Assembly: GCA_017883045.1 (NCBI GenBank)
Contig: JADGOJ010000006.1
Location: forward strand, 1 to 46,976
Direction: 5' to 3'
Origin: Acidimicrobiales bacterium
GTDB taxonomy: Bacteria > Actinomycetota > Acidimicrobiia > Acidimicrobiales > RAAP-2
Length of the DNA stretch: 46,976 nt
Under the pieces are notes generated by a model. That model made no database searches. It had not been told where the DNA came from and worked only from the letters and a program-made list of their open reading frames with translations. A program made the position numbers and the translations under genes. Below are positions 3,106 through 45,844 of this stretch, piece after piece; within the stretch, counting starts at the first letter, position 1; the number at the start of each line of letters is the position of its first letter.

Positions 3106-3119
3106 ACCAAGCGCTTGCT
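3106..3119. promoter_or_regulatory. KstR2-type operator 1
   Basis: The 14-mer ACCAAGCGCTTGCT fits AnCAAGnnCTTGnT at every fixed position. It lies 34 bases before the ATG of the thiolase at 3154 and should control the thiolase/PaaY-like pair. The consensus is recalled for mycobacterial KstR2; binding here is inferred. Confidence 0.85.
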
Positions 3120-5529: not shown

Positions 5530-5543
5530 ACCAAGCGCTTGGT
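5530..5543. promoter_or_regulatory. KstR2-type operator 2
   Basis: The 14-mer ACCAAGCGCTTGGT is a perfect palindrome and a full match to AnCAAGnnCTTGnT. It abuts the probable -10 box TATACT at 5543-5548, so a bound repressor would cover the promoter of the SDR pair downstream. Confidence 0.87.
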
Positions 5544-11502: not shown

Positions 11503-11516
11503 AGCAAGCGCTTGAC
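11503..11516. promoter_or_regulatory. KstR2-type operator 3 (shared by DUF35/Ltp and ipdAB)
   Basis: The 14-mer AGCAAGCGCTTGAC has an intact core and differs from AnCAAGnnCTTGnT only at the last base. It sits between divergent units. TTGACA (11512-11517) overlaps it on the plus strand, TACAAT follows at 11521-11526, and a TAGAAT box faces the other way at about 11493-11498. One site could repress both promoters. Confidence 0.85.
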
Positions 11517-11609
11517 ACGCTACAATCCACTCATCGCCGAACGCGGGATCATACCGCCTCTCCATTCCCGGAGTGGTTACGGGAGCGCTAGTCGAAGGGG
11601 GGAGTGGAC

Positions 11610-16551: not shown

Positions 16552-17319
16552 TCACGCGTCGTGACGTCCGAAACCCTCTCGAACCTCGTCCGCTACACCA
16601 CTGAGATTCAGTTCGAACGTGAAACCCTGCTCGTAGCGGTAGCTGCGCCTGACGTCCCACAGATCGATGCCGTTGAGCGACTCCTTCGCGGCGCGGATCA
16701 CGCGGGGATCCTTGGAGGCGATCTCGCGGGCTATCGACATCGCCGCCTCGCGCAGTTCCGGTCGCGGCACGACGCGCAGCACCGAACCGAACGCATGGAG
16801 CTCCGCGGCAGTCGCCACCGCTGACGTGTACATCATCGCGCGCATCTTGTGCTGGGGCACCAGTCGCGAGAGGTGCGTCGCCGCGCCGAGGGCGCCCCGA
16901 TCGACCTCCGGGAGACCGAAGGTGGCGTCCTCGCTGGCCACGATGACATCCGAGTTTCCCACCAGGCCGATGCCGCCGCCGAGGCAGAAGCCCTGCACGG
17001 CGGAGATGACCGGTACCGCGCACTCGTACACCGCCGCGAACGCCGCCGCGCATCCGCGGTTCGCACCGATGAGCGCTTCGAAGCCCTCTTCGGCCTGGAT
17101 CTCCTTGATGTCCACGCCGGCGTTGAAACCCCGGCCCTCGGCGCGCAACACGACGACTCGGACCGCGGGATCCTCACCCAGGCTACGCACGACGCGGGCG
17201 AGCTCGAACCAGCACGCCACGGAGAGCGCGTTCACGGGTGGCCGATCGACCACCACCTCGGCGATGCCGAGTTCCCCCACGGTCACCGTGATGTCGTTGC
17301 TCGCAGTTGCATCCGTCAT
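16552..17319 (-). CDS. echA20: EchA20, crotonase-fold ring-D opening hydrolase
   Basis: The 255-residue crotonase is a close match to EchA20 as I remember it: LRAEGRGFNAGVDIKE, ANRGCAAAFAAVYECAVPVI, GFCLGGGIGLVGNSDVIVAS, ATFGLPEVDRGALGAATHLS and EQGFTFELNLSGVADE. EchA20 hydrolyses the D ring of HIEC-CoA to give COCHEA-CoA, the IpdAB substrate. Oxyanion-hole glycines are in GRGFNAG and GGGIGLV. Its ATG overlaps the upstream MaoC stop by 4 bases (ATGA). The operon order is ipdF, FAS1-type MaoC, catalytic MaoC, echA20, all from operator 4. Confidence 0.95.
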   Translation of the reverse strand: MTDATASNDITVTVGELGIAEVVVDRPPVNALSVACWFELARVVRSLGEDPAVRVVVLRAEGRGFNAGVDIKEIQAEEGFEALIGANRGCAAAFAAVYECAVPVISAVQGFCLGGGIGLVGNSDVIVASEDATFGLPEVDRGALGAATHLSRLVPQHKMRAMMYTSAVATAAELHAFGSVLRVVPRPELREAAMSIAREIASKDPRVIRAAKESLNGIDLWDVRRSYRYEQGFTFELNLSGVADEVREGFGRHDA

Positions 17320-19008: not shown

Positions 19009-19320
19009 AACCGTCCTCTTTCTGGCGCGAGGCCGCACACTCGAGGTGCATCTGGCGATCCGGGACCGGTTGTTCGGCCCGGCCCGAAAGCCCCATCGCC
19101 TTGAAATCCCTGCGGGATTGCCGAGGCGCGCGTTGTGGCGACTATAGCAGTGGTGATGATGCCAAGCAAGCGCTTGTCTCGATTGCCCGAGAGCGATAAC
19201 CTCAGTGTCGTGTCCCTACTCCGCCCGCATCTCACGAGTTCGGCGCCCGTCGGGCGCGCGTTCTCCTCGGTCGCTGCGCACTTCATGCTGCGACGACTGA
19301 CGGACGCGGACTAGGTCGGT
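19009..19320. promoter_or_regulatory. Divergent promoter region of ipdF and fadE30
   Basis: This stretch of about 310 bases separates ipdF and fadE30. On the minus strand TATAGT (19141-19146) faces ipdF. On the plus strand TTGTCT (19174-19179) and GATAAC (19195-19200) are plausible -35 and -10 boxes for fadE30. Operator 4 covers the -35 region of both. No other gene or repeat is evident. Confidence 0.5.
19165..19178. promoter_or_regulatory. KstR2-type operator 4 (shared by ipdF and fadE30 units)
   Basis: The 14-mer AGCAAGCGCTTGTC has the intact CAAGCGCTTG core and one mismatch to AnCAAGnnCTTGnT at the last base. It lies centrally between divergent ipdF and fadE30 and overlaps plausible -35 elements on both strands. 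Confidence 0.87.
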
Positions 19321-20532
19321 ATGGATCTCCGTTTCACTCCGGAGGAAGAGGCGTTTCGCGTCGAGCTCCGCTCGTACCTCGACGAGTTGCTCCGCGGCGA
19401 GTTCGCAGTCGTGCGTGGTCGCGGCGGACCGGGCGACGAGGACTCGCTCTTCGAGGAGCGCCTCGCCTTCGAGCAACGTCTTGGTGCCGACGGCTGGACG
19501 TGCGTAGGGTGGCCGACTTCCTTTGGCGGCAAGGGCCTTCCATTGCCCTTGCAGGTGATCTACTTCGAGGAGTGTGCCCGTGCCGGCGCCCCGGGCAGGC
19601 TCGGGCACATCGGTGAGGGACTCATCGGACCGACACTGATCCACTACGGCACGCCCGAGCAACAAGAACGATTCCTCCCCGCCATACGACTGGGCCGGGA
19701 ACTGTGGTGCCAGGGGTTCTCCGAACCAAACGCCGGCTCGGACCTGGCCGGCGTCAGTACCCAGGCCCGACGCGACGGTGACGAGTGGGTCATCAACGGC
19801 CAGAAGGTCTGGACGTCCCTGGCCCACGTCAGCCACTGGTGCTTCGTGCTCGCGCGGACCAATCCCACCGCCCCCAAGCACCAGGGCATCTCGTTCCTGT
19901 TGGTGCCCCTCGACGCCGCGGGGATTGAAGTGCGTCCGATCGTCCAGTTGACCGGCACCGCCGAGTTCAACGAGGTCTTCTTCACCGAGACCAGAACGGC
20001 GGCTGACCTGGTGGTCGGCCAGGTGGATCGTGGTTGGGAGGTCGCGATGGGCTTGCTCTCCTTCGAGCGCGGCGCCTCGACCCTCGGCCAGCAGTTCGCG
20101 TTTCACCGGGACTTCGAGGCGATCAAGTCCCTGGCCCAGGCAAACGGCAAGTCCTCCGAGCCCCGGTTCCGCCAGCAACTGACGGCCCTGTGGGGGCGCC
20201 TCGAGATCATGCGTCTCAACACCCTTCGCATGCTCACCGAAGCCGAGCGGCCCGGGCTGTCGGGTGCCGCGTACATCTCCAAGCTCTACTGGGCACGGCT
20301 GCACCAGGACCTCGGCGAATTCTTCGTGGACACCGTGGGCACCGACGCGATGATCGCGGGCGGGCCGTCCGGCGACTTGAGTCCCGCCCAGCGCCTGTTC
20401 TTGTTCACCCGAGCGGATTCGATCTACGGCGGCTCGGATCAGATCCAGCGAAACATCATTGGAGAGCGCGCCTTGGGCCTGCCGCGAGAACCACTCGCGA
20501 GCAGTGGCCCCGGTGCGACGAAAGGAAGTTGA
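19321..20532 (+). CDS. fadE30: FadE30, acyl-CoA dehydrogenase of the HIP propionate side chain
   Basis: The 403-residue ACAD matches FadE30: RGGPGDEDSLFEERLAFEQ, WCQGFSEPNAGSDLAGV, GQKVWTSLAHVSHWCFVLAR, TGTAEFNEVFF, and the end SIYGGSDQIQRNIIGERALGLPRE. The Glu usual after the C-terminal Tyr is Gly here. The base is more likely E249 in SFERG, the isovaleryl-CoA dehydrogenase position. FadE30 is known to start beta-oxidation of the propionate side chain of the (hydroxylated) HIP-CoA. The ATG follows operator 4 by 142 bases. A second gene, an SDR, starts one base after its stop, so they form an operon. Confidence 0.94.
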   Translation: MDLRFTPEEEAFRVELRSYLDELLRGEFAVVRGRGGPGDEDSLFEERLAFEQRLGADGWTCVGWPTSFGGKGLPLPLQVIYFEECARAGAPGRLGHIGEGLIGPTLIHYGTPEQQERFLPAIRLGRELWCQGFSEPNAGSDLAGVSTQARRDGDEWVINGQKVWTSLAHVSHWCFVLARTNPTAPKHQGISFLLVPLDAAGIEVRPIVQLTGTAEFNEVFFTETRTAADLVVGQVDRGWEVAMGLLSFERGASTLGQQFAFHRDFEAIKSLAQANGKSSEPRFRQQLTALWGRLEIMRLNTLRMLTEAERPGLSGAAYISKLYWARLHQDLGEFFVDTVGTDAMIAGGPSGDLSPAQRLFLFTRADSIYGGSDQIQRNIIGERALGLPREPLASSGPGATKGS

Positions 20533-25015: not shown

Positions 25016-25029
25016 AGCAAGCGCTTGGT
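25016..25029. promoter_or_regulatory. KstR2-type operator 5 (shared by ACAD unit and synthetase unit)
   Basis: The 14-mer AGCAAGCGCTTGGT matches AnCAAGnnCTTGnT fully. TATCAT at 25042-25047 is a plausible -10 for the plus-strand synthetase, so the operator would cover its -35 region. The minus-strand ACAD starts 110 bases away. Confidence 0.87.
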
Positions 25030-25141
25030 TGCCGAGTCCTGTATCATGATTGCTGCTTCGCGAGTGTTCGCTGCTGGACGTCGCGGCGACGTGAAGTACG
25101 CGCCACAAGAGCGTGGAACTGTTGACGAATTGGGGGTTGAT

Positions 25142-33225: not shown

Positions 33226-34380
33226 TCAGCCGAGTCGCTCGATGATCGTCACGTTGGCCTGCCCGCCACCCTCGCACATGGTCTGCAGTCCGTAGCGGCC
33301 ACCGGTTCGCTCGAGCTCGTGCAGCATCGTAGTCATGAGCCGGGTGCCGGTCGCTCCTAGCGGATGGCCAAGGGCGATGGCGCCGCCGTTCACATTGACC
33401 TTGTCAAGATTGGCGCCCGTCTCCTTCTGCCACGCGAGCACTACCGACGCGAACGCCTCGTTGATCTCGATCACGTCCATCTGATCGAGTGACATGCCCG
33501 TCCGGCGAAGTGCGTACGCGGTCGCGGGGATCGGGGCAGTGAGCATGAGGATCGGGTCCGCACCACGAGCCGAGATGTGGTGCACGCGCGCGCGGGGGGT
33601 AAGGCCGTACTTCGCCACGGCGTCCTCGGACGCCACCAGGACCGCCGACGCACCGTCACAGATCTGGCTCGCGACCGCGGCCGTGAGCCTCCCGCCCTCG
33701 GTCAGGGACCGAAGGGTCGCCATCTTCTCGAGCGACGTCTCGCGCCGCGGACACTCGTCGACCGACACGCCGGCCACGGGCACGATCTCGCGCGTGAAGC
33801 GACCGGCGTCAATCGCCGCATTAGCCCGGCGGTGGCTCTCCAGCGCGAACCGCTCCATCTCCTCGCGGCTGATGTCCCACTCTTCGGCGATGCGTTGGGC
33901 GGCGTAGAACTGCGAGACGGGCGCATCCCCGTAGCGTGCGCGCCAGCCAACCGAACCACTGAAGGGATCGGTGAACCCGAACGCCTCGCCCGCAAGCATC
34001 GCGGCCGATATTGGGATCTGGCTCATGTTCTGCACGCCGCCAGCCACGACCAGGTCCGCCGTTCCGCTCATCACGGCCTGGGCTGCGAAGTGAACCGCCT
34101 GCTGGGACGAGCCGCACTGCCGGTCAACCGTGACTCCCGGGACATCCTCGGAGAATCCGGCGGCCAACCAGCACGTCCGGGCGATGTCCCCGGCCTGCGG
34201 GCCGATCGAGTCAACACATCCCATCACGACGTCGTCGACCACGCTCGGATCGACGCCCGACCGATCCATTAGCGCGGTCAAGACCGCCGCTCCCAGGTCA
34301 GCCGGGTGCACCCGGGACAGCCCGCCGTCGCGCTTGCCCACCGGGCTCCGTACTGCTTCGACGATGTACGCCTCAGCCAT
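33226..34380 (-). CDS. fadA6: FadA6, thiolase of the HIP ring C/D pathway
   Basis: The 384-residue thiolase is a near motif-for-motif match to FadA6: AEAYIVEAVRSPVGKR, HPADLGAAVL, VTVDRQCGSSQQAV with nucleophile C89, GGVQNMSQIPIS, SREEMERFALESH, GGAIALGHPLGATG (His) and TMCEGGGQANVTIIERL. FadA6 is thought to cleave the beta-keto diacyl-CoA formed after IpdAB opens ring C, releasing acetyl-CoA. AGGAGG lies 4 bases before the ATG. It is the second gene after an SDR (34449-35231) with a 68-base gap. I see no KstR2-type palindrome in front of this unit, which is odd for a core gene of the pathway. Confidence 0.95.
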   Translation of the reverse strand: MAEAYIVEAVRSPVGKRDGGLSRVHPADLGAAVLTALMDRSGVDPSVVDDVVMGCVDSIGPQAGDIARTCWLAAGFSEDVPGVTVDRQCGSSQQAVHFAAQAVMSGTADLVVAGGVQNMSQIPISAAMLAGEAFGFTDPFSGSVGWRARYGDAPVSQFYAAQRIAEEWDISREEMERFALESHRRANAAIDAGRFTREIVPVAGVSVDECPRRETSLEKMATLRSLTEGGRLTAAVASQICDGASAVLVASEDAVAKYGLTPRARVHHISARGADPILMLTAPIPATAYALRRTGMSLDQMDVIEINEAFASVVLAWQKETGANLDKVNVNGGAIALGHPLGATGTRLMTTMLHELERTGGRYGLQTMCEGGGQANVTIIERLG

Positions 34381-34448
34381 GCTTCCTCCTTGCCAGCTCA
34401 CCGCGCCAACCCCTCGGGACCGGCGCCGCTCCACCTGACGTCGCGCCG

Positions 34449-35231
34449 TCAATCATCGCGGCCCTCCGCACGTTGCATCTCGTAGAGGAACGACGGGATC
34501 TCCCCGCCGCCGTCAACGAAGATGTTTGCGCCGGTGACGTACGAGGCGGCGGGCGAGGCCAGCATCGTGCAGACCGCGGCCACTTCGGCGGGCTCGGCGA
34601 GGCGACCGACCGGAATCGTCCGGGCGACTGAGTCGATCGAGGAGTACCGGTCCTGGGCGTCGATCGTCTTGATGAGTCCGGGGCTCACGCAGTTGACTCT
34701 CACCGCGGGCGCCCACTCGATGGCGAGTGATTGCGTCAGGACGATGAGCCCAGCCTTGGACGCGTTGTACGCCGCCGTGCCCGGAGGCGGACGAAGCGCG
34801 GCGACACTCCCCACGTTGATGATCACCCCCCCACCCGTCTGGCTCTGCATGACCTGATTTGCCCGCTGGGCCACGTAGAACGGCGCGAGCAGGTTCAGTT
34901 CCACGATCTTCGCGAAGGACTTGGGGCTGATCGACGCCGACTCGGCGTTGCCCGATCCACCCGCGTTGTTGACCACCACGTCGAGGTGGCCGTAGCGCTC
35001 GACCACTTGGCCAATCAGCACATCGACCTGGTCAGGTCGGCGCACGTCACAAGGAAGGAAGAGCGGCGCGCCGTGGTCGGTCCCGGGGGGAGGCGGCGTT
35101 CGACCGCATACCACCACATCGGCGCCGCCGCTGGTGAACGCTTGCGCAATGGCTGCACCGAGTCCGCGCGCGCCACCGGTCACCAGCACGACCGGTCGAT
35201 ACCCTTCGATCGAGTTCGTCTTGGTGGTCAC
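34449..35231 (-). CDS. SDR family oxidoreductase upstream of fadA6
   Basis: The 260-residue SDR has VLVTGGARGLGAAIA, NNAGGSGNAES, NVGSVAALRPPPGTAAYNASKAGL with catalytic Ser, Tyr and Lys, VRVNCVSPGLIKT, and the end TGANIFVDGGGEIPSFL. The GTG at 35231 is chosen because the sequence before it has no SDR character. GGGACGAG lies about 6-12 bases upstream and a possible TACAGT -10 at 35252-35257. It probably oxidises a 3-hydroxyacyl-CoA or ring alcohol, feeding the beta-keto product to FadA6, which follows it. No CAAGCGCTTG motif was found in the 290 bases upstream. Confidence 0.88.
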   Translation of the reverse strand: MTTKTNSIEGYRPVVLVTGGARGLGAAIAQAFTSGGADVVVCGRTPPPPGTDHGAPLFLPCDVRRPDQVDVLIGQVVERYGHLDVVVNNAGGSGNAESASISPKSFAKIVELNLLAPFYVAQRANQVMQSQTGGGVIINVGSVAALRPPPGTAAYNASKAGLIVLTQSLAIEWAPAVRVNCVSPGLIKTIDAQDRYSSIDSVARTIPVGRLAEPAEVAAVCTMLASPAASYVTGANIFVDGGGEIPSFLYEMQRAEGRDD

Positions 35232-35523
35232 CGTTCTCGTCCCGTCACCACGACTGTAGCCACCGACCAGGCGCGCGTCGCGGTGGCCCCGGCAACGTCG
35301 AGGTGCGGCGAGGCGCTGGGCCACTGCGTGGCGCGTGGCCGCACGTGGAAACGACGAGCCCGCATCCCCTCGCCACGACGTCTCGCGGGACCGGATGCAA
35401 CTCGCCGCCAGTCCCGTGCCGCTTCCAGCATCGAAGCCGTGTACCACGCGGCGGCTCTCACGGCCGTGCCACGACCGTCACCACCACAGGGAACGACGTT
35501 CGCCTCGCCATCTCGAGCTTCGC

Positions 35524-36306
35524 TCACCTTGGTCCGTCGTTGTCCGAGGACTCATTCGTGACCCTGGCCTTCCCGAAGTAGGCCTCCTTCAGCACATCGA
35601 GGTCCACGATCTCTCGCGCGGGAGAGTCAAGGATCACGCGGCCGATCTCAAGCACGACCACGTGGTCAGCCACCTCGATGGCGGCCTCGACCTGCTGCTC
35701 GACGAGCAGCACTCCCATGCCGGCCTTCTTCAAGTTGACCAGGATTGACATCACCTCATCGACGATCGCCGGCGCGAGGCCGCCCGAAGGCTCGTCGAGC
35801 ATCAAGAGTGAAGGCTCAGCCATGAGGGCCTGACCAATTGCCACCATCTGTTGCTGTCCACCGGATAGCTGGCCGACGACCACCCTTCTTCTCTCGCCCA
35901 GGGCGGGGAACATGTCATAGATGCGAGTCAGGTGCGCTGGCATCTTGCGGCGCCTGATCCCCAGGGTGTAGCCACCCAAGAACAGGTTCTCCTCCACGGT
36001 GAGACGGTGGAAGACGCGCTTGCCATCCTGGACCAGTGCCATCCCCTTGACAACCCTCCGGTGAGTCTGGAGGCCCGATATGTCCTCTTCGCGGAAACTG
36101 ATGCTCCCGCCTCCGATCTTGGTGAGTCCGGCGATCACCCTCAGCGTCGACGTCTTGCCAGCGCCATTGCGTCCGAGAATCGCGGTCAACTTGCCGGGGT
36201 GCACCGTCAGTGACACGTCCCAGACGGCACGGATGTCGCCGTAGCCCGCCGCAAGGTTCCTCACCTCCAGCAACGGGGCCACGGGCACCTCAACCGGGCC
36301 GGTCAT
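35524..36306 (-). CDS. livF: LivF-type ABC transporter ATPase
   Basis: The 260-residue ATPase has Walker A GRNGAGKT (45-52), LSGGQQQM signature, Walker B LLMLDEPSGGL and the switch His region VLLVEQQVEAA. LLVEQ is typical of the LivF branch of branched-chain amino acid/amide (HAAT) importers. It is last in the operon livK, livH, livM-livG fusion, livF, and its ATG overlaps the stop of the fusion gene by 4 bases. The C-terminal tail (residues 245-260) is Asp/Glu/Ser-rich. The gene name reflects the family; the substrate need not be an amino acid. Operator 8 in front of livK suggests a HIP or steroid-derived acid (inference). Confidence 0.92.
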   Translation of the reverse strand: MTGPVEVPVAPLLEVRNLAAGYGDIRAVWDVSLTVHPGKLTAILGRNGAGKTSTLRVIAGLTKIGGGSISFREEDISGLQTHRRVVKGMALVQDGKRVFHRLTVEENLFLGGYTLGIRRRKMPAHLTRIYDMFPALGERRRVVVGQLSGGQQQMVAIGQALMAEPSLLMLDEPSGGLAPAIVDEVMSILVNLKKAGMGVLLVEQQVEAAIEVADHVVVLEIGRVILDSPAREIVDLDVLKEAYFGKARVTNESSDNDGPR

Positions 36307-38135
36307 GATGCGTGCCCCGTGGTCTCGGCCTCGATAGCCGCCGCCGCCGCGCCAACGTCCTTCACGCCCAGGTACTCCTTCAGCACCCGGGGGTTCACCT
36401 CGATGTCCGCTGGTGCTCCCGAGGCGATGATCTCGCCCTGAGCGAGCACGTGGATGGTGTCCGCAAGCGAGAGGACGAGACGGAAGTTGTGCTCGACGAG
36501 GATCACCGTTCCACCGGCGTCGCGGACCCGCCCGATCAGCACGGCGAGGCGGGCGACCTCGCCTTCGTCTAGGCCCGACGCCGCTTCGTCGAGCAGGATG
36601 ACACTCGGGTTGGAGACGAGCGCCCTGGCGATCTCGAGCAGTCTCCTGGTCCCCAGGGGCAGCGAGACGGCCTCTTCGTCCGCCAGTTCACTGAGTCCGA
36701 CGATCGCAAGGGTCTGCGCCACCCGCTCCTCATCGTGCGCGCGCACCTTCCAAAACTTCGGAAGGCGCAACGCCGCCGACGCAATGGAGACACGCTCGGG
36801 CGAGTAGCGGCCAGCGAGCACAGCCTGCGAGACCGTGATCCCGGTCGGGATCACGGGGGTCTGGAACGTTCGCGCGAGACCACGACCGGCGATCTCGTGG
36901 GGGCGACGATTGTCGAGTCGGACGCCGTCAAGATCGATGGTGCCGGCGTCGATCGGGTAGAAGCCGCAGATCATGTTGAGCAGCGTCGTCTTGCCCGAAC
37001 CGTTGGGTCCGATGAGCGCCGTGACTTGCCCACGCTCCGCGGTCAGACTCACGTCGCGCAGCGCCACGTTGCCCCCGAATGACTTCGAGACGCCCTTGAC
37101 CGACAGCGTGGCACCAGCCATCGGTTCGAAGTGGAAGTCCTGGGGGGAGTGTGTCGTACTGCGAGTTACGTGGTCCGGTCGGACCACGTAACGCTTCCAC
37201 GCCCTGGTAATCAGACCGGTGAGTCCGTCCGAGAGGAGCACCCCGCCCGCGATCAAGAGAATGCCGTAGAAGATGAGGGCATCCTGCTGGAACGACGTCG
37301 ACACGCTGGGGCCCAACTGCATGATCACCGCACCCAGCACGGCGCCATAGACGCTCGTCGCCCCGCCGAGGATCGAGGCGGCAAGAATCGAGATGGCGAG
37401 GGCGAAGGAGAACGACCCGGGTGAAACGTAGCTGTCGAGATTCGCGAAGAGGGCCCCGGCCACACCTGCGGGAACCGCACCGAGGGCGTAGGCCACAAGC
37501 TTGGTTCGAAACACCGAGATCCCGAGCGACGACGCGAGCACCGGGCTCTGTCGCATGACCCGCAGCGCGATCCCGTGCCGCGACGTGACGAGGTTGCGCA
37601 TGAATGCGAGCCAGATGATCACCGAGAGCATGCACACCAGGTAAAAGCCGTAGTTTGTGAGCAGGGCGCCGAAAAGGGTCGGAGGCGCAATGCCGACTGC
37701 ACCAGATGGGCCTCCCGTGACGTTGATCAAGATGTTGGTGATATCTGGGATCAGCAGCACGAGGAAGAACGAGGTCATCGCCAGCGACCAACTGCCCAGG
37801 CGCAATCCGGGGATCCCGGTCAAGAGCCCGACGACGAGCGCCGCACCGATCGCCGCGAGGATCTGCAGAAGGATGTCAGTGGAGCCGTGGGCACCCATGT
37901 AGGCGGCCACGTACGCCCCCGTCGCGTAGATCGCCGGCTGGCCCAGGGCCAGTTCACCGGCGTAGCCCAGACTCAGGTTGAGCCCGCTGACGAGCAGCGT
38001 GAGGAAGCCGATGAGCAGCAGTTGTCGTTGGTTCGCATCACTGAGGCCCAACTGCGGAAGGAGGAGGAGGAGGATCGCCGCGACCACCGGAAAGGTGAAC
38101 GAGGGAACGGACTTCAATCGATTGAGGACTGACAT
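36303..38135 (-). CDS. livM-livG: LivM-LivG fusion: ABC importer permease joined to ATPase
   Basis: The 610-residue protein joins two normally separate parts. Residues 1-315 are a LivM permease with about ten hydrophobic segments (e.g. 14-31, 38-56, 90-112, 165-178, 245-270, 285-302) and SLNLSLGYAGELALGQPA. Residues 340-600 are a LivG ATPase with Walker A GPNGSGKT (376-383), LPLGTRRLLEIARAL signature and Walker B VILLDEAASGLDEGEV. It sits 2 bases after livH and overlaps livF by 4 bases. Such fusions are known in some actinobacterial and proteobacterial LIV systems. It acts at the cytoplasmic membrane with LivH and LivF. Confidence 0.92.
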   Translation of the reverse strand: MSVLNRLKSVPSFTFPVVAAILLLLLPQLGLSDANQRQLLLIGFLTLLVSGLNLSLGYAGELALGQPAIYATGAYVAAYMGAHGSTDILLQILAAIGAALVVGLLTGIPGLRLGSWSLAMTSFFLVLLIPDITNILINVTGGPSGAVGIAPPTLFGALLTNYGFYLVCMLSVIIWLAFMRNLVTSRHGIALRVMRQSPVLASSLGISVFRTKLVAYALGAVPAGVAGALFANLDSYVSPGSFSFALAISILAASILGGATSVYGAVLGAVIMQLGPSVSTSFQQDALIFYGILLIAGGVLLSDGLTGLITRAWKRYVVRPDHVTRSTTHSPQDFHFEPMAGATLSVKGVSKSFGGNVALRDVSLTAERGQVTALIGPNGSGKTTLLNMICGFYPIDAGTIDLDGVRLDNRRPHEIAGRGLARTFQTPVIPTGITVSQAVLAGRYSPERVSIASAALRLPKFWKVRAHDEERVAQTLAIVGLSELADEEAVSLPLGTRRLLEIARALVSNPSVILLDEAASGLDEGEVARLAVLIGRVRDAGGTVILVEHNFRLVLSLADTIHVLAQGEIIASGAPADIEVNPRVLKEYLGVKDVGAAAAAIEAETTGHAS

Positions 38136-38137
38136 TG

Positions 38138-38998
38138 CTAGACCACCCGCTCCCGGATCTTGCCGAACAGGCCGTTCGGCTTGAGTAACAGGACGAGGAG
38201 CAGTATCACGAAGACGACCACGTCAGGGTAATTCGAATTGAGATACCGAGCGGCGAACTCCTGGGCGAACCCGACAACAAAGCCCCCGATCAGGCCTCCG
38301 GGAAGACTGCCGAATCCCCCGATCGCGAGGGCCACGAAACCGTACAGCGCGATTGCCGAGGCGAGACCCGCCCCGGCAAAGGTTTGCGGACCGAGAATCG
38401 GCCCGAGGAGGCCGGCGAGGAGGCCCGAGAAAGCGAATGCACCCAAAGCGAGTCGACGGACGTTGATCCCCCGCAGCAGGGCGGCCTCACGGTTCTCGGC
38501 GATTGCCAGCATGGCAAGCCCGATCATCGTTCGCCGGCTCATCAGCATGAGGGCGAAGACGATCACGAAAGTGATGACGATGATCACGAGCTCGTCGGGC
38601 AGGACGCGTCCACCGAACAGCGTCTGGACCTGACTCGAACCAAAGAAGGGGACCGCGAGCGGGCTGGGTCCCCAGATCCGCTGGACCGCGCCGTTGATCA
38701 ACGTGGCGAACCCCACGGTGGTGACGAGTTGCGCTTCAGCCACCCGCACGAAGCGAATCGCAATCCGCTCCTCCAGGATCGCCGCGAGGAAGACCACGCC
38801 ACCGGCGAGAACGAAGACAAAGAAGATCGGCCACTTCAGAATCACGATCCCCGCGTATGACAGGTAGACACCGAGCATCATGAACTGGGCGTGCGCGAAG
38901 TTGAACACTCCAGAAGCCGTGAAGACGACGTTGTACCCGGTGGCCACGAGTGCGTACACGGCACCAATGGTCAGTGCCGACCAGACGAGCGTCATCAT
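38138..38998 (-). CDS. livH: LivH-type ABC transporter permease
   Basis: The 286-residue membrane protein has about eight hydrophobic segments and the LivH pattern: WSALTIGAVYALVATGYNVVFTASGVFNFAHAQFMMLG at the N-terminus, then AIAENREAALLRGINVRRL (the EAA-like coupling region) and GGFGSLPGGLIGGFVVGFAQEF near the end. It should form the channel with the LivM part of the fusion. It lies about 310 bases after livK with a strong hairpin in between, which suggests lower expression than the binding protein. The ATG at 38998 lacks a strong ribosome binding site; the ATG at 38995 is equivalent. Confidence 0.92.
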   Translation of the reverse strand: MMTLVWSALTIGAVYALVATGYNVVFTASGVFNFAHAQFMMLGVYLSYAGIVILKWPIFFVFVLAGGVVFLAAILEERIAIRFVRVAEAQLVTTVGFATLINGAVQRIWGPSPLAVPFFGSSQVQTLFGGRVLPDELVIIVITFVIVFALMLMSRRTMIGLAMLAIAENREAALLRGINVRRLALGAFAFSGLLAGLLGPILGPQTFAGAGLASAIALYGFVALAIGGFGSLPGGLIGGFVVGFAQEFAARYLNSNYPDVVVFVILLLVLLLKPNGLFGKIRERVV

Positions 38999-39308
38999 GA
39001 GCGCGCACCGCCCGTGGCGCTCGACGCCAAGTGGCGCCCATAGTAAATCCGGTCAGGATGTCCACCCTCGTCAGCGGGCAAGAACCGCAATCCTGCTGTC
39101 CCGCGGCCAATTCCAGCCGCATCGCGGGTCAGCACACACTTCGGCTCGCCGACAGCGACGTTCTCGTCACCCCTCTTGCGAACTGCAGTCACCACCCAAC
39201 CTCCACGCGTTCGAAATCGATTTCAGTCACATGACGCAGACCGCCGGGGCGACGAGTGGGTGCTCGTCGCCCCGGCGGTCCACTAGATGTCTCTCAGATC
39301 CTGACCGA
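38999..39308. other. livK-livH intercistronic region
   Basis: About 310 bases between livK and livH on the same strand. Apart from the strong hairpin at 39239-39280 I see no gene or operator. The rest, roughly 240 bases, could hold a weak internal promoter, but no clear boxes stand out. Confidence 0.45.
39239..39280 (-). terminator. 18-bp perfect hairpin after livK (terminator or attenuator)
   Basis: GACCGCCGGGGCGACGAG (39239-39256) pairs perfectly with CTCGTCGCCCCGGCGGTC (39263-39280) around a 6-base loop. It begins 28 bases past the livK stop on the minus strand. No T-run follows, as is common for actinobacterial terminators. In this place it would raise the livK/livH ratio by partial termination or by protecting the livK mRNA 3' end. 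Confidence 0.75.
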
Positions 39309-40544
39309 TTAGCACTTCGCCTTCGGCGAGTCGTACTGACCGTTGACCAGAAGCGATGGCGAGGCAAAGTTGAACGCGCTCGGCGGCTGGTTCGGAGCGT
39401 GAGACTTGCTGGAGAAGTAGTAGTTGGGGAACACACCAGTGTGCGCCGAATTCTTCTTCAGTTTCTCCAACGCCTTGGCAATCTTGACCGGATTCAGTGA
39501 ATTCGCCTGCTTCGCAGCGGCGGCCAGGAGCTGGACCGAGTCGTACTGGTACCCGAAGATCAACGACGCCGGGTCGTGGGAGTTCGAGTAAAAGTTGATG
39601 TTCGCGATCATCGTGTTCAAGTCAGCAGGCTGCTTGGCTGCCCAGACCGTGCTGTTGAAGACGAGGACCTTGAGGTTCGCCAGGCTGGGCGTGCACAGGA
39701 GTCCACCCTGCGACGGCGGTACACCGATGACGTTTGAAGATGCGGCGACGGCAGTGTCACCGAGAATCGGAACATTCCACCCGATCTTGGTGAGGTCCTG
39801 GAGCACATAGCCGACAACGCCTCCATAGCCTTCGAAGAGAAGGTACGAAGGATTGAGCGCCTGGAGGGCGAGCAACTGCGGAGTCACATCAATCGCGCTG
39901 TCCGCGAAGCTCTGAGTGCCAACCACCTTGACCCCGGCCGCCTGGCAGTCCGTGTTCATCATCGCCGACAGCGCACTGCCGTAGGGATCGACTCCATAGA
40001 TGATGCCGACACTCGTTCCGCCGTGCGCCTTTACGTAGGGGCAGAAAGCCGACGCGTAGTTGGCCACCGATGGGCTCATGTCAAAGTTATACGGGAAACT
40101 CTTGGGATCGCCCGAGTTCGCTGTTGGCCCAATGTTGAAGGTGATGACCTTCGCCCTGTTGGCGATGGGCAGCACCGCGCTGGACGTACCACTCGGACCG
40201 CCCCAGAGGTAGGCAAGCGGCTTGTGGCCGCCTGAGATCGCACCCTTGAGCTCGGTCACCGCGGTCGTCGGATCACCGGCATCGTCCTTGTAGGTGACCT
40301 GGATCTGGTGGCCGAGGATCCCGCCTCGCTGGTTCAAAACCTTGACCGACGCCTTGATGGCGTCAAGGGTCATCTCGGCGTTCGCAACCAAGCCCGTGAA
40401 GCTAATAGGGGTTGTAACGAGGAGTTGTACCGGTGCCTTCTTCGCACTGGCGCCGGCAACTGTCGAAGCCATTGAAATCGGGACGCTAATTCCAGCTAAA
40501 ACGATCGCTGCGCTTGCACACACCGATGACCATTTGAATCTCAT
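39309..40544 (-). CDS. livK: LivK-type ABC substrate-binding protein
   Basis: The 411-residue protein is a type 1 periplasmic-binding-fold protein. It has an N-terminal signal peptide (RFKW, then a hydrophobic stretch at residues 8-30, with a signal peptidase I-like AGASA-KK end). Mature features include PISFTGLVANAEMTLDAIKASVKVLNQ, GGILGHQIQVTYKDDAGDPTTAV and GYQYDSVQLLAAAAKQA. I see no lipobox Cys, which is unusual for a binding protein of a Gram-positive-type importer. AAGGGGGAA lies just before the ATG, and operator 8 is 30 bases upstream. In this family ligands range from amino acids to amides, urea and aromatic acids. A steroid-derived acid is a hypothesis based on the operator. Confidence 0.92.
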   Translation of the reverse strand: MRFKWSSVCASAAIVLAGISVPISMASTVAGASAKKAPVQLLVTTPISFTGLVANAEMTLDAIKASVKVLNQRGGILGHQIQVTYKDDAGDPTTAVTELKGAISGGHKPLAYLWGGPSGTSSAVLPIANRAKVITFNIGPTANSGDPKSFPYNFDMSPSVANYASAFCPYVKAHGGTSVGIIYGVDPYGSALSAMMNTDCQAAGVKVVGTQSFADSAIDVTPQLLALQALNPSYLLFEGYGGVVGYVLQDLTKIGWNVPILGDTAVAASSNVIGVPPSQGGLLCTPSLANLKVLVFNSTVWAAKQPADLNTMIANINFYSNSHDPASLIFGYQYDSVQLLAAAAKQANSLNPVKIAKALEKLKKNSAHTGVFPNYYFSSKSHAPNQPPSAFNFASPSLLVNGQYDSPKAKC

Positions 40545-40573
40545 TGTTCCCCCTTGACGGATATCGATAGCCG

Positions 40574-40587
40574 AGCAAGCGCTTGGC
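40574..40587. promoter_or_regulatory. KstR2-type operator 8 (ABC importer)
   Basis: AGCAAGCGCTTGGC has the intact core and one mismatch at the last base of AnCAAGnnCTTGnT. On the minus strand a TATCGA or GATATC -10-like box follows within a few bases and livK starts 30 bases downstream, so the repressor would block the importer promoter directly. Confidence 0.85.
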
Positions 40588-41107
40588 TGACTGCATAGTA
40601 TCGGAGGTCCGGACTTGTGTCAAGGCACCCCCGACGATCGAAGGCTATTTGTTGCACCGGGGTCCCACAATGGCAGGAGCCGGTATTTCTCGCCAGTTCG
40701 AATTGGCAAAGTACGTGGTCTCAGCGATCGCCGTCGAAGGGTGACGCTGCCCCCGAACCGGACCGCCATGACAGCGGTCGCCGGCGATCACTCGGGTCTT
40801 GTTCGCGTCGGCCCGGCGGTGCGATGGCGAGCCAACAGACGAACCAACGGCGTCAACCCGGCGGAGATTGGCGGCACTCCAGGAGAGCAGCGACGCCACC
40901 GCACGAGGACCGACACTCCAACGTGACCGGATCACTCAACGTGGAGCACGGCCTTTCGCGCATGGATGTCGAGTGAGTTGGACGCTGCCAACTCAGCGAA
41001 CACCGACACTCGTGAGCTCAGGCCGCCGTGGCACGGACTCCCCTCGAGCCCGGAACTGCCCACTGCATCGCACCGCTCCTCCGATCAACCCCGCGGGATC
41101 GCCGGGA
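40588..41107. other. Intergenic region between livK and fadE32/33
   Basis: About 520 bases between the importer promoter and the end of the ACAD pair. Short open frames occur on both strands but none has a ribosome binding site and a recognisable product. I see no hairpin strong enough to call a terminator. Confidence 0.4.
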
Positions 41108-42097
41108 TCAGATCTCGAGCCACTGGGCGACGCGAGCGACATGCACCTCGCTGTCGCCCCAGTCGGCGCAGCGAGCCCATGATCGCTTGACGAAATGGTG
41201 CAGGTCGTACTCCACGTTGTAGCCCATCGCGCCGTGGCACTGAATCGATGTTCGTGCGACCTGCCGGGCGGTGTCGGTCGCGAGAGCCTTGGCCATCGAG
41301 ATGTCGCGACTGGCCCAGTGGTCGCCGCTCGCCATCGACGCAGCTGCACGCCATACGGCGGGTCTGGCGAATTCGACGGCGATGAGCGAATTCGCGAGCG
41401 CGTGCTTCACCGCCTGGAAACTGCCGACCGGCACTCCAAACTGCTCCCGCGTCTGCACGTACTGCGTGGTCATGTCGAGCATTCGAGCGCTCAGACCCAC
41501 CAACTCCGCGGCTACGGCCAGCGTCACCCGGTCAATGGCGCGGGGCAGCCCTGCCAAGGGCAGCGTTGCCGGGGCACCATCGACCCGGACCCGTCCGGAT
41601 CGACGCGTCGCGTCGACCGTTGTCACCGGATCGACGTGGACCCGGCTCCGCGACACGAATCCGAGCTCGCCGTCTCGAACAATGATGAAGCCGTCGCTCA
41701 TCTGCGCGTGCGCAACGTGTCCCTCGCCCGTATCGCATGCGACCAGGGCGTCTCCGGCAAGAACCCTGTCGAAGAATTCCTGCTGACTCGGTGCGTCCGC
41801 CAAGAGGGGTGCGGCCATCGAAATTACTTCGCCCAGCGGTCCGGGTGCGGCGACGTAGCCCAACTCCTCGAGCGCCACGACCATGAAGACCTCATCGCAC
41901 CCAAGCCCGCCTCGCAACTCCGGGACCACGAGCCCCGGGACGCCCATGTCGCCCAACAACCGCCACAGGCCTCGCACACGCTCATCGCCGTCGGGCGAGG
42001 AGGCGTCCCGAAGAAGCTCGGTCGGACAGTGCGCGCGCAGCGCCGAGCGCAGGCCGTCGCGCACTGCCAGCACATCTTCAGAGAGGGCGAACCTCAC
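41108..42097 (-). CDS. FadE32/FadE33-type acyl-CoA dehydrogenase partner
   Basis: The 329-residue ACAD is shorter than usual (about 380). It has RFALSEDVLAVRDGLRSALRAH, LRGGLGCDEVFMVVALEELGY, and the C-terminal QYVQTREQFGVPVGSFQAVKHALA and CHGAMGYNVEYDLHHFVKRSW. It lacks the LER-type catalytic Glu found in FadE31, which supports a structural, FAD-binding partner role as in known FadE31-FadE32/33 heteromers. I chose GTG 42097, with GGGAGGA 5-6 bases upstream and 31 bases after the fadE31 stop; the longer open frame runs over fadE31. FadE31/32 is thought to oxidise the methyl-branched diacyl-CoA left after thiolysis. I cannot decide between FadE32 and FadE33. Confidence 0.88.
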   Translation of the reverse strand: MRFALSEDVLAVRDGLRSALRAHCPTELLRDASSPDGDERVRGLWRLLGDMGVPGLVVPELRGGLGCDEVFMVVALEELGYVAAPGPLGEVISMAAPLLADAPSQQEFFDRVLAGDALVACDTGEGHVAHAQMSDGFIIVRDGELGFVSRSRVHVDPVTTVDATRRSGRVRVDGAPATLPLAGLPRAIDRVTLAVAAELVGLSARMLDMTTQYVQTREQFGVPVGSFQAVKHALANSLIAVEFARPAVWRAAASMASGDHWASRDISMAKALATDTARQVARTSIQCHGAMGYNVEYDLHHFVKRSWARCADWGDSEVHVARVAQWLEI

Positions 42098-42128
42098 GAG
42101 CGTCCTCCCGGTCTCAAGAGCTTGGCGA

Positions 42129-43268
42129 TCATCGTCGCGGCATCCCCAGCATCCGCTCGGCGATGAGGTTGCGCTGGATCTCATTGGTGCCGGCGTAGAT
42201 CGGACCGCCGAGCGAGAACATGAAGGCCCTGCTCCAGGGGCCATCGACCTCGGCCTCGGAACCCAGGATCTCCATTGCGGTCTCTTGGATCTCGACGTCG
42301 AGCTCGCTCCAGAACACCTTGTTGAGGCTGGACTCGGAGTTTCGAACCGTCCCTTCGAGCATGCGAGAGACCTGGCCGAGCGTGAATAACCGGTAGGCCT
42401 CTGCACCCATCCACGCCCTCGCGACTCGCAGTCGAAGCGGTTCGCCCAAGGTCGCGCCCTGACGATCGGCGAGGTGTCGAAGTCGTTCGACGCTCGCGGT
42501 GAACCGTCCTGGGGAGCGAAGGGTCAAACCACGTTCCGAGTTGGTCGTCGACATCGCAATGCGCCATCCCTGCCCCACTTCGCCGAGGACCGCGTCATCA
42601 GGCACGAAGACGTTGTCGAAGAACACCTCGGCGAATCCCTCGTCGCCGTCGAGCCTTCCGAAGCCGCGCACCGTCACTCCCTCGGAATCCAACGGGACCA
42701 GGTAGTAGGTGAGGCCGTGATGGCGAACGCTCTCGGGATCGCTGCGAAAGAGGCCGAATACGTGGGTGCAGAACGCCCCTCGTGTCGTCCAGGTCTTCTG
42801 CCCACTGAGACGCCAGCCGCCACCGGCCTCATCACGCACCGCCCGGCTGACGATGGAGGCGAGGTCGCTGCCCGAACTCGGTTCGGACCATCCTTGGCAC
42901 CACGATTGCTCGCCCGAGGCCATGAGCGGCAGGTACGTGTCCTGCTGTTCGGTGGTCCCGAAGGTGAACAGCGACGGAGCCAGGAGGAAGATGCCGTTCT
43001 GGGTCACACGCTGAGGGCCACCGGCCCGGTAGTACTCCTCTTCGAAGATCAACCACTCCCAGACAGTGGCGTCTCGACCTCCGTACTTCTCCGGCCAAGC
43101 AACCACGGACCAACGTGCCTCATACAGCTTGCGCTCCCACTCGAGGTGAAGAGCGAAGCCCTCACGCGTGTCGCCGGAAGGAAGCTCTGGACTCGGCACC
43201 TCGCGCTCCAACCAGGAGCGCGCCTCGGCGCGAAAGGAAGCCTCACTAGGGGTGTCGGTCAGATCCAT
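42129..43268 (-). CDS. fadE31: FadE31, acyl-CoA dehydrogenase of the HIP pathway
   Basis: The 379-residue ACAD resembles FadE31: WPEKYGGRDATVWEWLIFEEEYYRAGGPQR, WCQGWSEPSSGSDLAS, FGLFRSDPESVRHHGLTYY, GEVGQGWRIAMSTTNSERGL, KVFWSELDVEIQETAMEILG and the end GGPIYAGTNEIQRNLIAERMLGMPR. Ala replaces the Glu after the C-terminal Tyr, and E245 in NSERG is the likely base. GGGAGGAG lies 4 bases before the ATG. The partner gene follows after 31 bases. Operator 9 lies about 107 bases upstream. The complex likely desaturates the 4-methyl-5-oxo-octanedioyl-CoA-type intermediate (known pathway, inferred here). Confidence 0.92.
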   Translation of the reverse strand: MDLTDTPSEASFRAEARSWLEREVPSPELPSGDTREGFALHLEWERKLYEARWSVVAWPEKYGGRDATVWEWLIFEEEYYRAGGPQRVTQNGIFLLAPSLFTFGTTEQQDTYLPLMASGEQSWCQGWSEPSSGSDLASIVSRAVRDEAGGGWRLSGQKTWTTRGAFCTHVFGLFRSDPESVRHHGLTYYLVPLDSEGVTVRGFGRLDGDEGFAEVFFDNVFVPDDAVLGEVGQGWRIAMSTTNSERGLTLRSPGRFTASVERLRHLADRQGATLGEPLRLRVARAWMGAEAYRLFTLGQVSRMLEGTVRNSESSLNKVFWSELDVEIQETAMEILGSEAEVDGPWSRAFMFSLGGPIYAGTNEIQRNLIAERMLGMPRR

Positions 43269-43374
43269 GAACTCCTCCCCTCGGGTTGTCGGCGAACGCG
43301 TGGTGCCCCGCACACTGTGTCAGGCTGATGATTCAGTCGCACAAGCGCAGTTGACGTCGTTGATCCACAATTCA

Positions 43375-43520: not shown

Positions 43521-44159
43521 TCACTCGTCGCCGTAGAGGTACGTGAGGTCGACGCCGGGCGCGACGAACCCGCGAAGAAAGACCTTGCAGCAGTCCTCTG
43601 CCAAGGCGTGGTAGCCGTACTGTTCCGATGACTTGAACCACCTAACGGTGAGCCATATCGAGTCACGCAGGAGGTGATAGACGAGCCAGGTCGGCACGTC
43701 AGATCGAAAGGACCCACTGGCCACACCCGCATCCAGGACGCTCATCCAGGCCGTCCGGACGTTATTGGCGAGAGCCTGGATGGGCGCCAGCCGCGGAGAG
43801 TTTGCGATGTAGTTCACATCGTTCTGGTAGATCTCCGCCGCATGGAGGTGAGTCGAGGTGCACTCCAACGACGCGTGGACGAGTCCTCGGAACTGTTCAA
43901 TGGCGTCGCCCTTCTTGCCCAACACTTCGTCGTATCTCTTGGCGAGTTCGTCAAGGAAGCTGACCATGATCTCTTCGACGATGGCATCCTTGGACGGGAA
44001 GTAGTGGTACAGACTTCCCGACAGGATTCCCGCCGCCTCACCGATCTCTCGCACCGTCGTCGTTCCGATACTCGTTTGCGCGAAGAACTCCGCCGCCACC
44101 TCGACGATGCGCAATCTCCGGTCTTGAGTAACCTCTGGTTCAGCCGTGCGTTTGGTCAT
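43521..44159 (-). CDS. kstR2: KstR2-like TetR-family repressor
   Basis: The 212-residue regulator has a TetR helix-turn-helix at about residues 17-62 (RIVEVAAEFFAQTSIGTTTVREI, then GILSGSLYHYFPSK). The ligand domain shows AEIYQNDVNYIANSPRL and LVYHLLRDSIWLTVRWF. GILSGSLYHxF, IYQ and RDxxWxxVRW are the traits I associate with mycobacterial KstR2, which is released from DNA by HIP-CoA. Its expected operator, AnCAAGnnCTTGnT, occurs up to ten times in this window. No such site lies before its own gene. An 11-bp palindrome ACTCATTGAGT (44191-44201) does. It is flanked by ipdC and fadE31, both with operators. Confidence 0.9.
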   Translation of the reverse strand: MTKRTAEPEVTQDRRLRIVEVAAEFFAQTSIGTTTVREIGEAAGILSGSLYHYFPSKDAIVEEIMVSFLDELAKRYDEVLGKKGDAIEQFRGLVHASLECTSTHLHAAEIYQNDVNYIANSPRLAPIQALANNVRTAWMSVLDAGVASGSFRSDVPTWLVYHLLRDSIWLTVRWFKSSEQYGYHALAEDCCKVFLRGFVAPGVDLTYLYGDE

Positions 44160-44350: not shown

Positions 44351-45508
44351 TCACGAACCCCCGATTATGGTGTTGATGCGCTCCGCTGCCGAGAGCGCTT
44401 CTCCGATGATCTGATCAAAGAGTTCGGCCACGGAAATCACCTCGTCGATGACCCCAACCACTTGTCCCGTCGGGAGAATCCCCGCATCTTCACGACCATC
44501 GACGAGGGCGGCCTTCGTGAGCATTGGCGCATTGGCCGCCATGACCACCTGGCTCCAGGACATATCCGAGTTGCGGTGCATGGAGATGCCGCTCTTCACG
44601 AGGCGCCCCAGTGACGAACCACCCAGCTCGCGAAATGCGATCGCCGACCGGAGCGCACCGGCGGCGCGGAGCAGGCGCGACGACTTCTCAAGACGCTCGA
44701 CCACGTCCGTTCGGATCACGCGCTGCGGTCGCCCGTCGATGGCGCTGGTCACAACGGTGTCGAACACACCAGCCTTCAAATACCTGTACTTGACCGCGTC
44801 GGGAACGTGGCTCTCCTTGGTGAGCAGAAACCTGGTACCCATCGCTATGCCATCGGCACCCAGGGCCAGCGCCGCCACGAATCCTCGCCCATCGCGGATT
44901 CCCCCAGCCGCGATCACCGGAACACGGGCGCCGACCGCATCCACTACCTGGGAGACGAGCAGGCTGGTGGGCACCGTTCCCGTGTGGCCACCACCTTCGC
45001 CTCCTTGTGCGATGACGGCGTCAATCCCCATGTCGGCGACCTTCTGGGCGTGGCGCACGGCACCGACGGTGGCAATGCACCGCACTCCCCCGGCGTGCAA
45101 CCTCTCGATCACGTCGCCGCCCGGCGCACCAGCGAAGGACACCACGGGCACCTGTTGGGCGATCGCCAGGTCGATCCGACGATCGATGTCCGGCAGGTCG
45201 AGTACGACGTTGAGTCCAAAGGGCTTTGACGTGCGCTGCTTCACCCTCTGGATCGCCTGCTCAAGCTCGGCGTAGCTCATGGTCGCCGACGCGAGGATGC
45301 CAAATCCACCCGCGTTGCTGGTGGCTGCGGTCAGGCTCGCTCCGGCAACCCAGCCCATGCCCGTTTGCACGATCGGATACCGCACGCCGAGCAGCGCAGA
45401 AGCCCTCGTCTCGAATGGGCTAGCTCCCGCCGTCACCTGGACGGGGCGTCCCGCACCACCGCTCTCGTCCGTTGGGAGGCCACCAACATCTGGAATGTCT
45501 GATGTCAC
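44351..45508 (-). CDS. ipdC: IpdC, FMN-dependent oxidoreductase of HIP catabolism
   Basis: The 385-residue TIM-barrel protein belongs to the nitronate monooxygenase/IpdC family: YPIVQTGMGWVAGASLTAATSNAGGFGILASATMS, then KPFGLNVV, AQGGEGGGHTG and VPVIAAGGIRDGRG (FMN phosphate loop), and GIAMGTRFLLTKESHVPDAVK. The match to IpdC is strong and it is about 30 residues longer at the N-terminus. IpdC catalyses an FMN-linked oxidation step on HIP-CoA-type intermediates before ring opening. GTG 45508 is chosen: TATCCT (45515-45520) is a good -10 six bases before it, so the mRNA is probably leaderless. Operator 10 abuts this promoter. fadD3 is divergent on the other side. Confidence 0.93.
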   Translation of the reverse strand: MTSDIPDVGGLPTDESGGAGRPVQVTAGASPFETRASALLGVRYPIVQTGMGWVAGASLTAATSNAGGFGILASATMSYAELEQAIQRVKQRTSKPFGLNVVLDLPDIDRRIDLAIAQQVPVVSFAGAPGGDVIERLHAGGVRCIATVGAVRHAQKVADMGIDAVIAQGGEGGGHTGTVPTSLLVSQVVDAVGARVPVIAAGGIRDGRGFVAALALGADGIAMGTRFLLTKESHVPDAVKYRYLKAGVFDTVVTSAIDGRPQRVIRTDVVERLEKSSRLLRAAGALRSAIAFRELGGSSLGRLVKSGISMHRNSDMSWSQVVMAANAPMLTKAALVDGREDAGILPTGQVVGVIDEVISVAELFDQIIGEALSAAERINTIIGGS

Positions 45509-45844
45509 GTTGCTAGGATATCGAACAAGCGCTTGTTGTGCTCTGACGTTCAGCTCAATCACTCTCTTTAATCTCTAGTTTCGATGTGGACAGGTGGGAA
45601 TCGCAATCGTGTTGTCACAAAGGACCTTCACGTGCACGTCGCGAACGCGCCGACTCGGCAAGGGTTTTCGCGCTGACCGTGCCACGCCGGCAGCCCCAAG
45701 CGCGCCCTCACGGTCCTGCCGACCTGGTCGGGTTCCGCTGGCAGACCCACAGAACCGATGTTGCCTCGCAACTCGTTCATGGCAGAATCCGACGGTGGAG
45801 CCGTTCCCAGTAGCGACCGAGTGCCACCGGTGACCGCCAGCGAG
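45509..45844. promoter_or_regulatory. Divergent ipdC-fadD3 regulatory region
   Basis: About 335 bases between the divergent ipdC and fadD3. It holds operator 10 near the ipdC end and the ipdC -10 box (45515-45520). The remaining 300 bases on the fadD3 side hold no second palindrome and no clear gene. Confidence 0.5.
45524..45537. promoter_or_regulatory. KstR2-type operator 10 (ipdC, possibly fadD3)
   Basis: AACAAGCGCTTGTT is a perfect 14-bp palindrome and a full match to AnCAAGnnCTTGnT, the most symmetric copy in the window. It lies 3 bases upstream of the ipdC -10 box and about 300 bases before fadD3. Confidence 0.9.

Follow-up and report, generated by a model that had tools for sequence, protein, structure and literature searches.

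The 46,976-nucleotide stretch analyzed here (the window; contig JADGOJ010000006.1 of an Acidimicrobiales bacterium, assembly GCA_017883045.1) codes on its minus strand for a complete LIV-type ABC importer (35524-40544), preceded by a KstR2-type operator. Judging by sequence and surroundings, this operon is almost certainly a member of a KstR2 regulon for the catabolism of HIP, an intermediate common to aerobic and anaerobic steroid breakdown that has been described as accumulating or being exchanged. The importer genes, each assigned by Pfam to its expected family far above cut-off, are livK, for a substrate-binding protein of 411 amino acids with a type I binding-protein fold in an AlphaFold2 (AF2) model (39309..40544; Peripla_BP_6, 8.7e-40); the permease gene livH (38138..38998; BPD_transp_2, 3.4e-30); a livM-livG fusion coding for a permease and an ATPase in 610 amino acids (36303..38135; BPD_transp_2, 1.3e-31; ABC_tran, 6.9e-28); and the ATPase gene livF (35524..36306; ABC_tran, 4.1e-29). 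One operon holds a binding protein, two BPD_transp_2 permeases, and two ABC ATPases, with M and G fused, which is the composition of the LIV/HAAT family.

The operator, AGCAAGCGCTTGGC, was located by pattern scans at 40574..40587 of the minus strand, and its core (40576-40585) lies 31 nt upstream of the livK ATG; a whole importer with an intact operator ahead of livK had been described in the original prediction, which put the distance at 30 bases. The published KstR2 motif is a 14-bp palindrome, AnCAAGnnCTTGnT (Kendall 2010, PMC3068626), which the livK operator matches at 9 of the 10 fixed bases, with C in place of the last T. Across the 20-nt block at 40571-40590, 19 of 20 bases are identical to the Rv3557c/Rv3558 oligonucleotide, a KstR2 site proven by electrophoretic mobility shift assay in the available part of the same source, where purified KstR2 bound three 30-bp probes and the motif lies 22-82 bp from the start of repressed genes.

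Sites of this kind are concentrated in the window, with nine occurrences of CAAGNNCTTG against 0.29 expected and none of 100 shuffles reaching nine; over the 2.28-Mb assembly this class is found at 30 places, which is the background level. The form CAAGCGCTTG is present at 11 places in the assembly, seven of them inside the window (binomial P of about 5e-10), and six further operators of the window carry the core of the livK operator. Two other matches, CAAGATCTTG at 4860 and CAAGAGCTTG at 42115, fall within apparent coding sequence and look like chance matches. Four CAAGCGCTTG sites lie outside the window, two of them (contigs C6 and C107) within long open reading frames (ORFs). Contig C53 (L026, 2363-8938) has two CAAGCGCTTG sites, one immediately before an F420-type LLM oxidoreductase gene and close to the gene for an AMP-forming ligase, and one 120 bp upstream of a CaiB-type CoA transferase gene; the genes at both are likely further regulon members. 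A pattern search of 61 relatives, which required one more base and counted each strand separately, gave 5+7 matches in the source genome, 2+4 in a second species of the genus (G022, the Acidimicrobiaceae metagenome-assembled genome [MAG] palsa_646), and 0-3 per strand in the remaining genomes of the genus in that search. Some more distant genomes without KstR2 equal or exceed these counts (G074, 8+8; G076, 6+9; G077, 5+8), so that the clustering of the operators, rather than their number per genome, is the marker.

A KstR2-like TetR repressor is coded at 43521..44159 on the minus strand, with matches to PDB entries 2ibd (7.1e-41), 4w97 (1.3e-38), and 4w1u (1.4e-38), compared with only 1.8e-13 for the next unrelated TetR structure. 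Its recognition helix reads GILSGSLYHYF, versus GILSGSLYHHF in KstR2. HIP-CoA is the inducer of KstR2 in the available part of PMC9782250, and by analogy the repressor of the window would respond to the same ester. An operator-like site recognized by locus comparison (45524..45537) precedes a candidate ipdC gene, itself located before kstR2 on the same strand, and autoregulation is therefore possible.

The arrangement is conserved in G022, which keeps the order NMO-KstR2-FadE-FadE-LivK-LivH-LivMG-LivF-thiolase (NMO being a nitronate-monooxygenase-like protein) at identities of 70% for LivK, 83% for LivH, 81% for LivMG, 77% for LivF, 86% for the thiolase, and 76% for KstR2. In G022, CAAGCGCTTG precedes the livK ATG by 33 nt; the 20-nt operator block is identical at 20 of 20 positions, compared with 78 of 163 aligned bases outside the block (48%). 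G022 has two further operators in the same places as the window, one at ipdA and the other separating the FadE30 candidate from the IpdF candidate. The livK gene of the window has a predicted sigma-70-type promoter, TTGACA-17-TACTAT (40595..40623, minus strand; 10/12 bases in a consensus scan), whose TTGACA element is also conserved in G022; the scan gave two such promoters over the stretch where 0.9 would be expected, which is weak evidence alone. Given this promoter, the palindrome would lie about at the transcription start. The gap between livK and livH contains a strong hairpin (39236..39283, minus strand; -55.8 kcal/mol, z of -8.1), and G022 has one at the equivalent place (z of -4.3) with different stem sequences; it may raise the amount of LivK relative to the permeases.

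HIP catabolic genes surround the importer. IpdA and IpdB, the alpha and beta subunits of a CoA-transferase-like enzyme, are coded on the plus strand at 11604..12464 (PDB 6co6_A, 1.1e-86; next family, 2.5e-20) and 12525..13310 (PDB 6co6_B, 1.6e-77; next family, 5.8e-19). The minus strand codes for the NMO-like IpdC candidate (44351..45562, true start probably near 45478; NMO, 1e-77), the acyl-CoA dehydrogenases FadE_e (42129..43313; Pfam, homologs near ipdAB elsewhere) and FadE_d (41108..42406, true start probably near 42139; Pfam and locus comparison), and an EchA20 candidate of the enoyl-CoA hydratase family (16552..17319; over the PRK07938 cut-off), whose homolog adjoins ipdA in many HIP loci. 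Downstream of livF, also on the minus strand, are a short-chain dehydrogenase/reductase (SDR) gene of uncertain start (34449..35447; adh_short_C2, 6e-57) and a thiolase gene (33226..34452; over the PRK07801 cut-off), the latter probably on the importer transcript. A FadE30 candidate, also an acyl-CoA dehydrogenase (19321..20532, plus strand), is divergent from an SDR, the IpdF candidate (18196-19038; over the PRK07831 cut-off), a pairing also seen in loci L033 and L034. Homologs of the NMO, the FadE pair, the enoyl-CoA hydratase, the thiolase, the SDR, and the FadE accompany ipdAB, in varying sets, in the HIP loci of other families; the NMO homolog adjoins ipdAB in most of these, and tblastn places thiolase homologs (67-74%) in four (L032-L034 and L045). 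The candidate names IpdC, EchA20, FadE30, and IpdF are suggested by this locus comparison together with the family matches.

The other operator-like sites, all from pattern scans, lie before a thiolase gene (3106..3119), before an SDR pair (5530..5543), between ipdA and a divergent DUF35/lipid-transfer pair (11503..11516), between the FadE30 and IpdF candidates (19165..19178), and between genes for an acyl-CoA dehydrogenase and an ADP-forming acyl-CoA synthetase (25016..25029); the third and fourth have equivalents in G022. No FadD3-type HIP-CoA ligase was seen in the window, and the AMP-forming ligase near the operator on C53 has the FadD3 family as second best, at 326 bits versus the 657 needed. 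The ADP-forming synthetase (25109-27301), which starts about 80 bp after its operator-like site, could take the place of FadD3 in the activation of HIP or of a different acid. A DegT-like aminotransferase gene (30306-31514, translation read by eye) is found among the beta-oxidation genes. The KstR2-type control of the importer put forward in the original prediction is well supported by the repressor, by the near identity of the operator to a proven site, by the conservation of operator and gene order in G022, and by these HIP genes.

We compared the distribution of the system over a genus set of 61 genomes, the source genome and 60 others, with thresholds of 1e-30 for LivK and 1e-25 for KstR2. 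LivK and KstR2 were each found in the source genome and G022 only, and the same two have strong IpdA matches (better than 1e-100), with a weak one in G058 (9e-22, 30%). The co-occurrence of LivK with strong IpdA gives a Fisher P of 5e-4, or 1/60 without the source genome, and one shared acquisition, which may have occurred, would make the two species a single event. Strong IpdA (better than 1e-75) is present in 16 of 39 other genomes of the order, none of which has LivK at 1e-30. LivK homologs were found at 1e-25 in 2 of 172 genomes of the family (the source genome and G022) and at 1e-18 in 1 of 396 genomes of the phylum, namely, the source genome. A further search, of the genome_contigs set, gave a single LivK locus, which belongs to the G022 MAG. 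Outside the genus, complete-looking LIV sets lie near ipdA in G084, G093, and G061, the spans compared differing between loci.

The upper steroid pathway was searched for in 18 genomes, comprising the source genome, G022, and 16 other IpdA-positive genomes. Profile searches gave no KshA_C and no HsaC in the source genome and no MlaD/Mce domain proteins in the source genome or G022, with 5 of the 18 positive for the last. Among the 16 others, KshA_C is over the cut-off in eight and strong in six, and HsaC is strong (145-222 bits) in four. From these searches, the source genome and G022 probably lack the 9,10-seco upper pathway and hence could not make HIP from steroids. Six of the 16 (G084, G087, G061, G085, G097, and G068) have neither KshA_C over the cut-off nor strong HsaC and are possible further HIP-only degraders. 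HIP or a related steroid acid becomes more likely as the cargo because KshA, HsaC, and Mce are apparently missing, and we lean toward HIP or a close indane acid as what the importer would carry.

Some information on the ligand comes from LivK itself. Its closest solved sequences are Rhodopseudomonas palustris binding proteins (6e-11), some with aromatic acids, followed by the leucine-binding protein (2e-8). The AF2 model, built on an alignment of 44 LIV-operon binding proteins from 52 hidden Markov model hits, has a type I periplasmic binding fold with a pLDDT of 77.4 and a pTM of 0.79 (a two-sequence input gave a pLDDT of 32.5); eight rows were left out of the alignment, being low scorers (L139 and L136), weaker (L137, L168, L150, and L131), or overlong ORFs (L149 and L161). 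The best fold match is Bordetella 4q6w in complex with 3-hydroxybenzoate (Z of 40.1, root mean square deviation of 2.3, 350 aligned). Remote relatives of LivK are found in 17 records of named plasmids, with identities of 23.5-28.4% among the 15 matches listed. In the 10 contexts opened we found four phenylacetate (paa) clusters, two sets of aromatic dioxygenase and AMP-ligase (acyl-CoA ligase) genes, of which one is on pIBU218 of an ibuprofen degrader, two contexts with FAD oxidoreductases, one AtuA terpene gene, and one asparagine permease. The proteobacterial phenylacetate clusters (L176, L179, L181, and L183) include, next to paaN, all or nearly all genes of a LIV importer, and one of these records contains a TetR gene annotated as KstR2. 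In an ibuprofen-degrader plasmid cluster (L175 and L182, on pRW412a and pIBU218), an AMP-ligase is followed by an orphan LIV-type binding protein; neither "transport" nor "substrate-binding" appears as a word in the main text of PMC9195938. A cyclic acid would fit LivK best, with HIP as the specific guess suggested by the context, and fold and sequence leave both amino acids and aromatic acids as possible ligands.

Several observations weigh against HIP scavenging as the role of the importer. The system is carried by just two species, and the 15 HIP loci of other families (L031-L045) contain neither CAAGNNCTTG nor, by tblastn, a KstR2-like gene. Looked for in related genomes, as the original prediction suggested, the linkage was found in G022, where gene order and operator are kept, and not across families, where LIV genes lie near ipdA in 3 of 16 loci against 1.2 expected (P of 0.12), which is not above chance. 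Regarding the upper pathway, G022 has a marginal KshA_C match (22.2 bits, or 24.2 with its neighbors, for a cut-off of 23.3) and an HsaC match of 18.8 bits over 44 residues; the HsaC cut-off of 450 bits was reached in none of the 18 genomes, which makes it an imperfect control, and both MAGs are incomplete (94% for the source genome and 85% for G022). KstD was dropped as a marker: the full-length FAD_binding_2 matches in the source genome and G022 are SdhA and NadB, and G062, positive for KshA and HsaC, likewise shows just these two, leaving no working positive control. As for LivK, the fold matches after 4q6w are pyroglutamate, alanine, and leucine binders (Z of 38.0-37.6), with aromatic-acid binders at 36.8 and below, and the count of six aromatic contexts in 10 covers relatives of LivK only. 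We take the amino-acid site of the leucine-binding protein to be Ser79, Thr102, and Glu226; Asp263 of LivK aligns ambiguously to Glu226 and could act as the amino-acid-binding acid, so the loss of the binding glutamate was dropped as an argument against amino acids.

Among the alternatives, an unlikely one is that the importer carries a different carboxylic acid, cyclic or aromatic (of arylalkanoate, terpenoid, or resin type), which the same beta-oxidation set would break down after its activation to a CoA ester, the repressor being tuned to that ester. The R. palustris relatives of LivK and the phenylacetate or aromatic-acid genes beside its remote relatives in 6 of 10 contexts would fit such a cargo, as would the SDR, thiolase, and CaiB genes of the window, which far outnumber the minimal HIP set. 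However, the HIP-specific pair is a far better match to IpdA and IpdB than other CoA transferases are, and both the repressor and its operator are KstR2-like. Still less probable is the re-import of HIP or other metabolites leaked during the host's own degradation of whole steroids, as in the CamM/CamABCD systems, with an upper pathway that is unassembled or divergent. KshA, HsaC, and Mce are unmatched in the source genome and not convincing in G022, in identical searches that matched other genomes, although the incompleteness of the two MAGs, the weak KshA_C and HsaC matches in G022, and the reuptake of cholate metabolites, as summarized in the available parts of reviews, all leave some room for it.

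An ordinary importer of amino acids or small acids that is merely inside the regulon, for instance for nitrogen supply, seems the least probable of these readings. Amino acids are the default of the LIV family, the fold neighbors include amino-acid binders, and Thr141, which fits the amino-acid site, may together with Asp263 match amino-acid-binding positions. On the other hand, LivK shares only 12-21% identity with 42 further binding proteins from LIV operons in the order, the NCBIfam branched-chain model gives it 47 bits for a cut-off of 477, the residue aligned to the site serine is Ser118 here and Ala in G022, and within the genus LivK is limited to genomes with HIP genes.

If HIP or a close indane acid is the cargo, a KstR2-like dimer would sit on the palindrome at the livK start without inducer and block transcription. 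A trace of HIP entering the cell would be converted to its CoA ester, the ester would release KstR2, and importer and ring-degrading enzymes would rise together in a positive loop. LivK would capture the acid outside the cell, LivH and LivM would pass it inward, and LivG and LivF would supply the ATP. As the host seems unable to produce HIP itself, other steroid-degrading organisms would supply it.

The window resembles the KstR2 regulon of mycobacteria and rhodococci in its KstR2-type repressor and palindrome, in ipdAB and the FadE, enoyl-CoA hydratase, and thiolase genes, and in the position of the operator near the start codon. The regulon as given in the available part of Kendall 2010 (PMC3068626) has 15 genes and no importer, while here a whole LIV importer is added. 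In Rhodococcus jostii RHA1, the available parts of reviews describe the re-import of cholate metabolites, those with a perhydroindane by CamM and those with aromatized A-ring structures by CamABCD. Going by these descriptions alone, the uptake of partly degraded steroid metabolites is shared with our importer, but the Cam systems (CamABCD, an ABC importer, and CamM, a major facilitator superfamily carrier) serve cholate catabolism and the reuptake of the cell's own products. The Mce4 sterol importer also takes up steroids in actinobacteria but belongs to a different protein family, and no MlaD-domain protein was found in the source genome or G022. Aromatic-acid LIV/HAAT importers (R. palustris 3uk0, 4eyq, 4f8j, and others; Bordetella 4q6w) likewise combine a type I binding protein with pairs of permeases and ATPases and have acid ligands; their binding proteins are 20-21% identical to LivK, and the structure titles listed include no steroid acid ligand. 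In agreement with the original prediction, no LIV importer for HIP, nor a dedicated HIP importer of any other kind, is described in the literature searched, where subscription papers are thinly covered. The importer appears to work like a metabolite re-importer and belongs to the LIV family; its place in the KstR2 regulon is the new part.

This uncultured soil-type bacterium probably lives on steroid fragments leaked by other microbes. More tentatively, the two species may be dedicated HIP scavengers that dropped or never had the upper pathway and obtain the two-ring remnant from other degraders through a high-affinity LIV importer in a KstR2 feed-forward loop. Since 6 of the 16 other IpdA-positive genomes lack KshA_C over the cut-off and strong HsaC, a division of labor in steroid degradation may be common in the order. 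Both LivK and the repressor are proteins that can be produced in Escherichia coli, which would make HIP cross-feeding directly testable, and they would offer a genetic means of recognizing HIP scavengers in metagenomes. If this reading holds true, the operon would exemplify the recruitment of a LIV-type importer into the KstR2 regulon.

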